Part shown: in pieces, positions 12,891-19,517 of the stretch
Layout of the letters: every line of letters starts with the position of its first letter
Numbering within the stretch: the first letter of the stretch is position 1
Virus record (IMG/VR): IMGVR_UViG_3300006802_000679
Span: 1-21,748 of that record
DNA length: 21,748 nucleotides
Direction: 5' to 3' (one strand)
Source: a virus
Notes under the pieces: generated by a model
The model's database searches: none
The model's input: the letters and a program-made list of their open reading frames with translations, nothing else
Told to the model about the DNA's origin: nothing
Position numbers and translations under genes: made by a program

Positions 12891-12927
12891 CGCACCATTG
12901 CCTTAGCGTAAAACCAGTCTACGGCGT

Positions 12928-13469: not shown

Positions 13470-13511
13470 ACCAGTTCGTTGGGTATGAGACTAGTGTAGC
13501 GGACTAGAAAC

Positions 13512-13537
13512 AAAAAACCCCGGCTTTACGGCCGGGG
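13512..13537 (-). terminator. Intrinsic terminator after the tail tube gene
   Basis: The minus-strand RNA forms a seven-pair stem (CCCCGGC with GCCGGGG, six-base loop) followed by six U residues, from the plus-strand A run at 13512-13517. It lies 28 bases past the stop of the tail tube gene and 42 bases before the chaperone start. Read-through would give less chaperone than tube protein, matching their expected copy numbers. Confidence 0.88.
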
Positions 13538-13564
13538 TGCTGAACCTACTGCACCAGCAGACTA

Positions 13565-14338: not shown

Positions 14339-14365
14339 AGGGCGTACCAAATGAACGTTGTTGGG

Positions 14366-14378
14366 CGGGCACTGCCCG
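14366..14378 (-). promoter_or_regulatory. GC-rich hairpin in leader of the tail tube gene
   Basis: The perfect palindrome CGGGC-ACT-GCCCG sits 27 bases upstream of the tail tube start and has no U-run. A hairpin of the same size lies 30 bases upstream of the capsid gene. Such 5' stems can mark RNA processing or stabilise an mRNA; the function here is inferred. Confidence 0.4.
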
Positions 14379-14385
14379 GCTTAAT

Positions 14386-14401
14386 ACAGGTTAGCGCCTG
14401 T
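14386..14401 (-). promoter_or_regulatory. Second hairpin upstream of the tail tube gene
   Basis: A five-base perfect inverted repeat (ACAGG / CCTGT, six-base loop) lies between the stop of the tail terminator gene and the GC-rich leader hairpin. The 76-base gap therefore holds two tandem hairpins and no gene. I found no convincing promoter boxes in it. Confidence 0.35.
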
Positions 14402-15769: not shown

Positions 15770-16300
15770 TCAACCTCGGAATAGGCGGACGGCGTAGTTT
15801 GCGGCGCCACCCATGCAATAGGGGCCGAGGTAGGTCTGCAGCCAGGGGTACACGTCAAAGACGTTGTTGATCACGCCGCTGGTTTGGCTGGTCTTGTTGT
15901 ATTTGACTTTCAGTTCGCCCAGTTCCACTTCGTCGTAGATGCCGGTCGTGCCAGTGTTGCCGGTGATGGCGTCGGTGTCGTTGGCGAAGGCGCGTGCCAG
16001 TTCGTAGGTGGCAACTTCGATGCCGACAGGAATCAGGGTGCAGGCCAGTTCGATGCCGTCAACTTTGTATTCCTTGCGGGGCCACTTCAGTGCCTGCGTT
16101 TCGCTGCAGCGTTTGCCGTAAAAGCTCAGCGCGTCGATCCAGCGCGTGGCGGAAATCAAAGCGCGGTTTTTCTGGTCGTTGGTCTTGTCGTCCCAGTTGG
16201 CGGATTCTGGTGTTGTCTCGAAATAGGCGTCAGCATCTGCCAGCGTCACGTACGAGTTGGCCGAAGCCCCACCCAGAGTGGCGTCAATGACAGCGGCCAC
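15770..16300 (-). CDS. Head completion / adaptor protein (DnaT-like family)
   Basis: The 176-residue protein starts MAAVIDATLGGASANSYVTL and has DADAYFETTPESANWDDKTN, then a helix with NRALISATRWIDALSFYGKR and a segment TQALKWPRKEYKVDGIELAC. That pattern is typical of the family labelled DnaT-like ssDNA-binding in databases, which sits at the portal-proximal adaptor position in many phages. An adaptor role (as SPP1 gp15 or HK97 gp6) fits its place directly after the capsid block. The start is GTG 16300, four bases past the stop of the small gene upstream, with AAGGA about a dozen bases before. The DNA-binding label should not be taken literally, since the virion role is inferred from context. 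Confidence 0.7.
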   Translation of the reverse strand: MAAVIDATLGGASANSYVTLADADAYFETTPESANWDDKTNDQKNRALISATRWIDALSFYGKRCSETQALKWPRKEYKVDGIELACTLIPVGIEVATYELARAFANDTDAITGNTGTTGIYDEVELGELKVKYNKTSQTSGVINNVFDVYPWLQTYLGPYCMGGAANYAVRLFRG

Positions 16301-16303
16301 GGC

Positions 16304-16498
16304 TTAGTACATCCTTTGTTTGAGTCTAGCGCCAGTGCGAGATTTCCTTTGTTTGGGTGGTTCGCTTAAAACCATTGAGTGGTAAACCTTGGCGCCAAAC
16401 ATTTCCAGCTCGGCTTGAGCTTCGGCGTGGACGCCGTGAGGAACGTCAACAAAGCTGCGACAGTTATCCTGTAGTACGAAGAGGCGAACTCGTTTCAT
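16304..16498 (-). CDS. Small protein of unknown function (64 aa)
   Basis: I do not recognise this protein. It reads MKRVRLFVLQDNCRSFVDVP, then GVHAEAQAELEMFGAKVYHS, and ends in a basic tail KQRKSRTGARLKQRMY. Short, basic and without membrane segments, it may bind nucleic acid or the head vertex. ATG 16498 is chosen because the peptide downstream looks coding, while an upstream GTG at 16546 would add sequence that lies opposite the divergent gene. The start codon shares its A and T with the plus-strand gene at 16497 (CATG). The stop lies three bases before the next start, so expression is linked to the connector genes. Confidence 0.6.
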   Translation of the reverse strand: MKRVRLFVLQDNCRSFVDVPHGVHAEAQAELEMFGAKVYHSMVLSEPPKQRKSRTGARLKQRMY

Positions 16499-16772
16499 GA
16501 CCCCGCGTAGAACTTCGGCAATTGAGGCCAGCGTAGAGCCGATCACTCAAGTTGAACAGAAGACTGTTGACGCTTCCAAACCGAGGAAGTGGGCTGACGT
16601 GGCTAAGGAAGTTAAGGCGTTGCGTGAGAAAGGCGCCAACGTGCCGGAGATTTGCGAAAAGCTGCAGGTTTCCTACGTGCTTGTGAACCAGCTCATCTTG
16701 CAGTCGTACAAGATGGCGATTGACTCGGAGGCTGTGTTCCAGCGGCAAGAGGAGATGCGGCTTCAAGGTTGA
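16497..16772 (+). CDS. Small helix-turn-helix-like protein on the opposite strand
   Basis: This is the only supported plus-strand gene. The 91-residue product begins MTPRRTSAIEASVEP, has a Lys/Glu-rich helix (KWADVAKEVKALREKG), then ANVPEICEKLQVSYVLVNQL (about 53-72), which has the spacing of a helix-turn-helix, and ends AVFQRQEEMRLQG. Codon use favours G or C at the third base, as expected of a real gene, and the opposing frame looks like a shadow. A DNA-binding regulatory role is likely but not proven; small terminase-like or plasmid-type regulators also have such helices. A GAGG sequence lies 12 bases before the ATG, rather far. It stops 14 bases before a strong terminator. Reversed orientation inside a late operon with its own terminator is typical of a moron gene. 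Confidence 0.72.
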   Translation: MTPRRTSAIEASVEPITQVEQKTVDASKPRKWADVAKEVKALREKGANVPEICEKLQVSYVLVNQLILQSYKMAIDSEAVFQRQEEMRLQG

Positions 16773-16785
16773 GGTAGACAAAAAG

Positions 16786-16812
16786 AAAGGCCCCCGAAAG
16801 GGGGCCTTTTTT
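16786..16812. terminator. Bidirectional terminator between capsid and HTH genes
   Basis: A ten-pair perfect stem (AAAGGCCCCC with GGGGGCCTTT) closed by GAAA lies at 16786-16809. It is followed by a T run on the plus strand (16807-16812) and by CTTTTTG on the minus strand. It can stop transcription of both the plus-strand HTH gene (14 bases upstream) and the minus-strand capsid gene (stop at 16827). Confidence 0.9.
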
Positions 16813-16826
16813 GTGTCGCTTGAGGA

Positions 16827-17921
16827 TCAGGCGTACACAGAGGTGTCGAACGGGGTGTTCACCAGCAGGCGGGTGATGGGCACCATCTTGGTGGTGCTGT
16901 ACACCAGGTTCCAGTTGCCAGTGGTGGCCAGACCAGCGTTGGTCGGGTTGTCGGTGGCGTTGGCGTACTTGGTGCCGGTCACGTGGTAACCGTAGTGGTA
17001 ATCCACGGCGATCACATCCTGCATGGACAGGATGTTGCGGTCTGCGGCCAGGCGAAGATCCTGTTGGATGCCTTCGGAAACGACGCCAGACTTGAACAGA
17101 TAGACCGGATACTTCACCAGGTGGGTGGCAGTACCGCCGGTCAGGTAGCTCAGTTGGTCGTCGATCACCACGCGGAGACCAGCAAAGGTCGCCACTTCGG
17201 GTTGGCCGACGCCCACACCGCCGCCACCCCAAGTCACCGCACCAGCGGCAGCAAGGGCAGAGGTGCTGAAGGTCAGCATCCCGACTTGTTGCAGGTAGTA
17301 GGCAACAGCCGAGTGCATGGCGATGGAGTCAAGCTCTTCGCCGCGCTCGCCAAGCTCGTTCTTGGCCTTGATCACGTTGGCAGCCGAGATGTAGTTCGCC
17401 TCGGTTGCGGTGGTGGTGCCAGTTACGTCAACCTGGTTGGGGCCAAGCACGCCAGCGCCGGAAATACCGCCGAAAAGACCCAGCAGCTGGTTCTTCAGGG
17501 TGGTGGTCTTCAGCTTGTTGATGGCGGCGGTCAGCTGGTTGCGGACGTGAGCCAGAGGATCGGCGCCGGAACAAAGCTTGCTTAGGTCGTCTGCGGCATA
17601 GGCAAAACCACGATGCAGGATCGTCATGATCTGCTCGTCGGCGGTGGACTTCTGAGGAGTCAGATAACCAGCGCCAGAAGTTCCCCAAGCGGCCGAAGAG
17701 AGGATTTGCTCTTCGGTGGGGTTGATGGGGTCGAAGAAAGGCACGCGGACGCGGGTGCCGCCGGCACGTGCGTCGAGAGCAGCGTTGCGCTGCACAATGC
17801 CGCTCTGGATCCACTTCGATTGCTCGAAGATGCCCTCAGAGGTGTATTGCAGGAATTCCGGGCGAGCGACAAGATCGCTCAAAAAAGTACCGCCGGAATA
17901 GTTTTCAGAGATGGCAGCCAT
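16827..17921 (-). CDS. Major capsid protein
   Basis: The 364-residue protein follows the scaffold gene and precedes connector genes, the standard capsid position. It starts MAAISENYSGGTFLSDLVAR and has GGTRVRVPFFDPINPTEEQI (54-73), a motif I associate with a capsid family of HK97 fold in which an early strand carries a Val-Pro-Phe turn. The long helix (LAHVRNQLTAAINKLKTTTL, 123-142) fits the spine helix, and ALAAAGAVTWGGGGVGVGQ (222-240) is a loop. The C-terminal part (LVVYSTTK-like strands, ending NTPFDTSVYA) fits the A domain. A strong ribosome site AGGAG lies six bases before ATG 17921, fitting high expression, and a bidirectional terminator lies 15 bases after the stop. The HK97 fold is inferred. 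Confidence 0.88.
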   Translation of the reverse strand: MAAISENYSGGTFLSDLVARPEFLQYTSEGIFEQSKWIQSGIVQRNAALDARAGGTRVRVPFFDPINPTEEQILSSAAWGTSGAGYLTPQKSTADEQIMTILHRGFAYAADDLSKLCSGADPLAHVRNQLTAAINKLKTTTLKNQLLGLFGGISGAGVLGPNQVDVTGTTTATEANYISAANVIKAKNELGERGEELDSIAMHSAVAYYLQQVGMLTFSTSALAAAGAVTWGGGGVGVGQPEVATFAGLRVVIDDQLSYLTGGTATHLVKYPVYLFKSGVVSEGIQQDLRLAADRNILSMQDVIAVDYHYGYHVTGTKYANATDNPTNAGLATTGNWNLVYSTTKMVPITRLLVNTPFDTSVYA

Positions 17922-18716: not shown

Positions 18717-19517
18717 TCAGTACGTTCCATCGTCAGTTGAGGCAGGGTCGCCTTGGTCGCCTTTCGGGATTGTGAAATTCAAAATTGCGGCTGTACTGGT
18801 ACCGCTATTGGTGACGATTACGTTGGTGCCGGCAGATCCTGTGTTTACGGCGCCAATCGTGATGGTTGCGGCGGTGCCTGGATCGCCTTGGGGTCCTTGC
18901 GCACCTGTAGCACCAGTCTCGCCTTGAGGTCCTTGCGGGCCGGTTTCGCCCTGTAAACCTTGTTCGCCTTGGATGCCCTGCTCACCCTGAATACCTTGGG
19001 TTCCCTGCGGACCTTGTGGGCCGGTCTCACCTTGGGGTCCGGTTAAACCTTGGATGCCTTGTTCGCCTTGTTCGCCTTGCGGGCCTTGGGGACCTTCCGG
19101 TCCTGTCGCCCCAGTGGCGCCCGTCGCCCCACGGGGAATAACAAAGTTGAATACAGCGGCAGACTCGGTGCCGCTATTAGTTACGGAGGCATCAGTGCCG
19201 GCGTCGCCGGTGGTCGTAGTGCCAACCGTGATCGTTGTAGTAGATCCACCGCCGGAACCCGGCAGTGCCCCGCCAATTGTTAATCCTGTTATCTGCGTGC
19301 GGGTAGCAAGTTCGACGCCCGCGCCCCAGTCGGCGTTTGCCTTGGGGCCGTAAATCGTCAGCGGGTCAAGGCTGATGTACCAGTCGCCGTCCGTGCCGAG
19401 TGTGGCGCGTGGTGGACCGTCGCCAGAGTGGATCGTGTTAAGTGCGTCAACCCGCTGGGTGAGGCGCACCAAGGCGGTGACTTGGGCGAGCGTTAGTTGC
19501 TCGGACTTGGTAGCCAT
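18717..19517 (-). CDS. Collagen-like protein in the head gene cluster
   Basis: The 266-residue protein has a helical N-terminus ([20 protein letters not shown]), then [20 protein letters not shown], then two near-identical 38-residue beta modules (residues 93-130 and 216-253, 22 of 38 positions identical) flanking 28 uninterrupted Gly-X-Y triplets at 130-213. The modules share the core VTNSGT and end in N-F-x-I-P-(R/K)-G. Collagen triplets form trimeric rods in phage fibres and appendages. Here the gene lies between portal and scaffold, so a capsid-attached fibre or a vertex protein is possible; a tail fibre is the alternative. It ends DDGTY. The start shares an A with the portal stop (TGATG). 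The sequence shows the repeat clearly, and the location on the virion is inferred. Confidence 0.85.
18879..19130. repeat. Gly-X-Y coding repeat (28 triplets)
   Basis: A run of nine-base periodicity encodes 28 uninterrupted collagen triplets of the minus-strand gene. Frequent triplets are G-P-Q, G-E-Q, G-I-Q and G-E-T. The near-repetitive DNA may recombine and change rod length. Confidence 0.9.

Follow-up and report, generated by a model that had tools for sequence, protein, structure and literature searches.

A divergent gene pair between the capsid and connector genes of a phage: a candidate regulatory insert at a transcription-unit boundary

The viral DNA analysed here (IMG/VR record IMGVR_UViG_3300006802_000679, positions 1 to 21,748; the whole stretch of 21,748 nucleotides is called the window) contains one small gene for a helix-turn-helix (HTH)-like protein, flanked by MCP, which encodes the major capsid protein, and by the gene of the head-tail adaptor (Ad1); all other plausible genes of the window are on the minus strand. 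What is such a reversed gene doing within the late genes, and does it, as the original prediction proposed, mark a control point for head versus tail gene expression?

The gene pair and its products

Judged by homologues in IMG/VR (52–95% identity), a median dN/dS of 0.20, indicating purifying selection, and the exclusively in-frame indels seen on comparison of the homologues, the reversed ORF is a true protein gene, alone on the plus strand between the capsid and connector genes, as had been predicted. The earlier inventory of the block was right in this ORF and had overlooked its partner, sORF64. The CATG palindrome reads ATG on both strands, and the two genes diverge from it with no intergenic DNA (Table 1). 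Together they look like a block inserted between two transcription units and resemble a self-contained control cassette. The capsid protein is 43% identical to that of cyanophage S-2L and 51% identical to that of the marine virus AG-345-A17.

Table 1. Positions of genes and candidate signals at the capsid–connector junction of the window.
Feature	Position	Strand	Remarks
MCP, major capsid protein gene	16827–17921	-	closes the head unit; match to PHROG 247 (major head protein), E 2.8e-47
Intrinsic terminator hairpin, 3' of MCP	16786–16809		T-runs on both sides in the window
HTH gene, 91 aa, ATG start	16497–16772	+	antisense to the late arm; putative DNA-binding product
Candidate -10 site TACGCT for sORF64	16530–16535	-	in HTH codons 12–13; TANNNT in 110/110 loci
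Stretch where the two RNAs are predicted to overlap at their 5' ends	16477–16523		47 nt in the window; covers both start codons
CATG palindrome, start codon of the HTH gene (+) and of sORF64 (-)	16496–16499		invariant in 110/110 non-redundant loci
sORF64, 64 codons	16304–16498	-	ends 3 nt short of the Ad1 GTG
Candidate -10 site TATCCT for the HTH gene	16465–16470	+	in sORF64 codons 10–12; TATNNT in 110/110 loci
Candidate -10 site TAGACT for Ad1 and tail genes	16323–16328	-	in sORF64 codons 58–60
Ad1, head-tail adaptor gene, GTG start	15770–16300	-	first gene of the connector/tail unit; PHROG 477, E 1.7e-34

Related loci were collected with the HTH protein as query (46 loci) and, in addition, with sORF64, giving 110 non-redundant loci in total, all of one clade, so that invariance among them overstates the independent evidence. 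The order MCP, hairpin, HTH gene (reversed), CATG, sORF64, Ad1 was identical in the 46 loci found with the HTH protein. Many of the loci found with sORF64 gave no pairwise HTH match, yet all have a reversed ORF that starts from the same CATG; their diverged HTH subfamily was recognised by the family profile (E 1e-10 to 1e-12). Both genes and the CATG were kept in 110/110 loci, and the synteny survey that had been suggested for related phages thus bore out a constant layout; one copy of each gene was found in 8/8 records of the window's clade. In L006 (5284–5793, minus strand), an HNH-endonuclease-like gene separates the HTH gene from the capsid terminator, and a gap of the same size is present in L002, L004, L005, L007, L008, L019 and L029; the gene is taken as a sign that the junction takes up insertions. 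Elsewhere in the window, a collagen-like gene (18717–19517, minus strand) between the portal and scaffold genes is present in some relatives and absent in others.

The label HTH is one that we infer, as no HTH family cut-off was passed, from numerous weak matches at the same place and a model of medium confidence. Pfam HTH_23 matched 26 of the 28 family members, weakly (best E 0.005); a phage transcriptional-regulator family gave a weak match in 17 members, and for the window protein the two cover the same segment. Raf1_HTH matched the family with E 0.0005, the window protein being below its curated cut-off. Scores of the window protein were 16.7 vs 27.3 bits and 14.6 vs 24.6 bits against Pfam curated cut-offs, and no HTH domain above the curated cut-off of any Pfam HTH family was found in it. 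The predicted structure, of modest confidence, consists of a three-helix core followed by a C-terminal helix (helices 32–44, 49–56, 60–68 and 77–90; core pLDDT about 70–85). A structure search with this model returned no PDB fold match below E = 1, a PDB profile search with the HTH alignment gave chance matches and one repeat protein ('CAP REPEAT') of which no single stretch passed, and tblastn of the protein against the phage collection gave no match even at E 1. The structure prediction that had been proposed as a check thus provided the helical core at medium pLDDT but no PDB counterpart; the HTH nature is favoured by the co-located matches and the helical model, though not by curated scores or a significant fold match, and the 91-aa protein is probably a DNA-binding HTH protein.

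sORF64 is also under purifying selection (dN/dS 0.27) and has a predicted bbab fold (pLDDT 86); no Pfam match and no convincing PHROG match were obtained, and its alignment was too variable for a genome scan. The fold weakly resembles those of CpcD-type phycobilisome linkers, T7 Gp2 and RNA polymerase epsilon (none with E below 0.001); superposition on a protein of the uvMED phage MedDCM-OCT-S39-C11 gave an rmsd of 0.5 over 42 columns, this match likewise not reaching E below 0.001.

Promoter-like sites and the capsid terminator

A generic sigma-70 scan found no promoter at the block, and no -35 box is evident at the sites described here, which were detected by codon constraint, i.e., by codon use more conserved than the proteins need. 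The pattern TANNNT is kept in at least 98% of the sequences at three sites only in the 0.5 kb block, each about 20–30 nt before the start codon of sORF64, the HTH gene or Ad1; in the five control genes taken from these loci (4.4 kb), one invariant TANNNT site was counted in total. The pattern is a loose one, and for GCTAVACT taken by itself chance predicts 1.7 occurrences in the window. Upstream of sORF64, HTH codons 12–13 (or an indel-shifted pair) read TACGCT, TAGGCT, TACGGT or TACACT on the minus strand in 110/110 loci, the S/T-V/L codons always spelling TA[CG][GA][CG]T on that strand; the V/L codon ends in TA in 110/110 loci vs 104 GTA/CTA among 1587 V/L codons elsewhere in the gene. Upstream of the HTH gene, sORF64 codons 10–12 read TATCCT, TATTGT, TATTCT or TATCAT on the plus strand in 110/110 loci, with the Asp/Asn codon 11 ending in T in 110/110 (vs 86/335 elsewhere) and Phe7 encoded by TTC in 110/110 (vs 31/161 elsewhere). 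Upstream of Ad1, the minus-strand sequence of sORF64 codons 58–60 is TAGACT or TAAACT in 101/101 loci. As a caution, protein conservation at such places (N-terminal S-V of the HTH protein; C-terminal residues of sORF64) can be promoter conservation.

From this constraint we infer that the three conserved TANNNT sites are promoters with RNA starts. The -10-like sites of the HTH gene and sORF64 point towards one another, each from within the opposite gene; by arithmetic on these candidate sites with starts set 7 nt after each -10, the 5' RNA overlap is predicted to be 38–47 nt in relatives. No conserved inverted repeat suggestive of an operator was found around the CATG; the best repeat occurs in 23/108 loci and lies away from the two -10 sites.

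The motif TAWCCTGTA is found twice in the window (0.16 expected): one copy precedes the HTH gene, the other the major tail protein gene. TATCCTGTA at the candidate HTH promoter resembles the latter site (14385–14393, minus strand), which is conserved in relatives. In the major tail protein leader (14350–14395, minus strand), a nearly invariant hairpin GCCGGGCAGTGCCCGC follows the TAACCTGTA/TATCCTGTA site; it is present at the same place in about 60 loci, though the protein differs by 30% or more, and may be an RNA control element.

The hairpin after MCP has 10 pairs (7 GC), a loop of 4 and T-runs on both sides; folding with flanks gave -31 kcal/mol (plus strand) and -25 kcal/mol (minus strand). 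A generic terminator scan of the window yielded terminator counts at chance level. Wherever the MCP junction was readable, the hairpin is kept, though its sequence varies. Since the minus-strand T-run, which belongs to the capsid transcript, is kept across relatives and the plus-strand T-run of the HTH transcript is weak or missing in several clades (L012–L016, L037–L046), the hairpin is read chiefly as the terminator of the capsid transcript that, by its sequence, works both ways in the window. The terminator had been described as strong, bidirectional and the HTH gene's own: the T-runs on both sides support two directions for the window, but not for the clades lacking the plus-strand run, and the hairpin is probably not the HTH gene's own, only the MCP orientation being consistently kept in relatives.

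Junctions without the pair, host and lifestyle

Phages of the AG-345-A17 type have a capsid protein about 50% identical to that of the window. Their MCP–Ad1 junction is alike in having the same neighbours, a terminator and a -10-like site before Ad1; it differs in having neither the HTH gene nor sORF64. At this junction, both genes are absent from 74 AG-345-type loci whose two flanking genes could be read, and neither was found anywhere in 8 AG-345-type records (24–43 kb). Where the MCP–Ad1 gap of the HTH-less relatives is 82–108 nt, the hairpin is followed by the -10-like site and then Ad1, i.e., terminator, GCTAGACT/GCTACACT/GCTACAAT/GTTAAACT, Ad1. The TAGACT site before Ad1 in the window is homologous in position and sequence to this junction promoter (upstream site GCTAGACTGACAAAAAGTATGTGGTAATGCT in L229 vs GCTAGACTCAAACAAAGGATGTACTAAGCC in the window), and sORF64 overwrites it with its last eight codons. 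Because many HTH-less relatives have the arrangement terminator–promoter–Ad1 at this place, the terminator and the tail promoter are taken to be older than the pair, which was probably inserted between them.

In one HTH-less subclade (54-nt gaps), Ad1 comes directly after the hairpin with no -10-like site; some transcription must pass the hairpin there, so that the hairpin may leak and read-through at the block is conceivable. In another subclade (L194, L198, L206, L222, L230), an unrelated small sense gene of about 54 codons (MAYSS...KKVGR) occupies the terminator–Ad1 junction. In about 60 loci, the tail chaperone gene is preceded by a terminator and then a promoter-like site (CGCTACANTA), with no HTH gene; in the window (13490–13540, minus strand), the conserved CGCTACANTA site follows the terminator immediately. 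A similar junction is seen near 12920, with GTAGACT after a terminator and before the tape measure gene. As HTH-less relatives and the tail chaperone junction both show it, the terminator–promoter design is thus general in the late arm and independent of the HTH gene.

A cyanobacterial host is likely for the window phage, as far as capsid relatives can tell: the nearest named ones are the marine single-cell virus and cyanophage S-2L, then Synechococcus and Prochlorococcus phages. A genome scan for prophages gave a single match, a cyanobacterial MAG contig without the block; a tRNA search for host clues found none. A tyrosine-integrase match (E 2.8e-19) is present in G002, the record of L022, at 37906–38400, and in none of the other 7 long records; with one such match among eight, lifestyle may vary within the clade.

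Readings of the block

The reading to which we incline, with somewhat better than even confidence, is that of a regulatory cassette of two genes, inserted where two transcription units of a siphovirus meet, with face-to-face promoters and autoregulation by the HTH protein. The ancestor would have had MCP, terminator, short promoter and Ad1; the divergent pair with its common CATG start would have come between the terminator and the Ad1 promoter. With each -10 inside the other gene, the mRNAs would be complementary over 38–47 nt, both start codons included, and polymerase collision together with 5'-end pairing would make the HTH gene and sORF64 mutually limiting. The HTH protein would bind the region and repress or tune its own promoter and that of sORF64; both binding and repression are guesses, because no operator repeat was found and the HTH fold is weakly supported. 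The tail genes would be served also by the promoter before Ad1.

This last point bears on the claim that tail transcription must either pass the terminator or start inside the HTH gene: with an invariant TAGACT (101/101) right before Ad1, neither is compelled. The promoter-like TACGCT inside the HTH gene does exist in 110/110 loci, but a tail start there is not required; read-through and this promoter may add to tail transcription. A head/tail switch, in which the terminator stops late transcription and the HTH protein gates a tail promoter inside its own gene, could draw on the strong minus-strand terminator in all loci with a readable junction and on that internal site, yet a further conserved promoter-like site lies downstream, many HTH-less relatives have the same terminator–promoter junction, and more such junctions occur deeper in the tail region, that before the tail chaperone gene among them. 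As Ad1 has its own site and HTH-less junctions exist, nothing singles out the block as a head-versus-tail gate, and such a switch is quite improbable. A role of the HTH protein as a general late activator compensating for missing -35 boxes was rejected, the HTH-less relatives having the same -35-less sites.

By anatomy, the suggestion of a moron-like insert stands: the block is absent from the next clade at the same junction, lies between a terminator and a promoter-like site and has its own promoter-like site. It shares with the morons of lambdoid and Salmonella phages an extra transcription unit at a gene boundary, in antisense and with its own (here candidate) promoter, and antisense position within lytic genes is typical of morons and prophage accessory loci (PMC7067206). 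A classical moron, an extra gene with its own promoter that chiefly benefits the lysogen and has no role in the late programme, would agree further with the neighbouring terminator and with the other inserts at the junction (the HNH endonuclease gene; the unrelated small sense gene). The block differs in being fixed in the whole clade, not patchy, in its divergent genes wired together by a common start codon, and in being written over the promoter of the neighbouring operon; moreover, an integrase was detected in 1/8 records only, so that lysogeny is conjectural. We regard the classical moron as rather unlikely. A non-regulator, e.g., a small structural or host-directed protein, whose reversed promoter serves as a brake on sORF64 by antisense transcription, would suit the weak HTH similarity and the lack of an operator-like repeat found; it accords poorly with the HTH_23 and phage-regulator matches (26/28 and 17 members, weak, on the same segment of the window protein) and with the predicted three-helix core and C-terminal helix, and is held to be unlikely.

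The inserted cassette invites comparison with known systems. In coliphages 186 and P2, opposed pR/pL transcripts have overlapping 5' ends. The block is alike in its opposed promoters (here candidates), its predicted overlapping 5' ends and a small, here predicted, DNA-binding protein on one side. It differs in lying among structural genes, between capsid and connector, and not in an immunity region deciding lysis vs lysogeny, in having both promoter-like sites inside coding sequence and both genes starting from one CATG, and in that no sequence relation to these phages was found. Interference, which the block would owe to its predicted layout, has been described for 186, where pR acts on pL (PMC7708051). 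No description of divergent genes with a common start codon at such a place was found in the open-access literature. In Aca systems a small HTH protein stands beside a small gene within the phage structural region, and the block likewise pairs a small gene with that of a putative HTH protein in that region. Its genes diverge from one CATG, no conserved inverted repeat was found, a PADLOC search gave no relevant match, and sORF64 is universal, not patchy; membership among Aca repressors was therefore dismissed. Aca genes share an operon with acr and bind inverted repeats in its promoter (PMC9410906).

A more far-reaching version of the cassette would be a two-state switch, in which expression of the HTH gene and of the tail-leading sORF64 is mutually exclusive because polymerases collide and the RNAs pair; once the late state is reached, sORF64 would act on the host's transcription or on its light harvesting. 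This target is guessed because the predicted fold weakly resembles T7 Gp2, an RNA-polymerase inhibitor, and phycobilisome linkers; the version as a whole is a long shot.

If the promoters of the inserted cassette are real, it would be an unusually compact unit, each promoter written in the coding sequence of the other gene, on more than 100 phage contigs. On the same condition, it would make built-in transcription interference accessible to testing away from the lysogeny region and would show that a regulated gene pair can be inserted at a transcription-unit boundary without cutting off the downstream genes.
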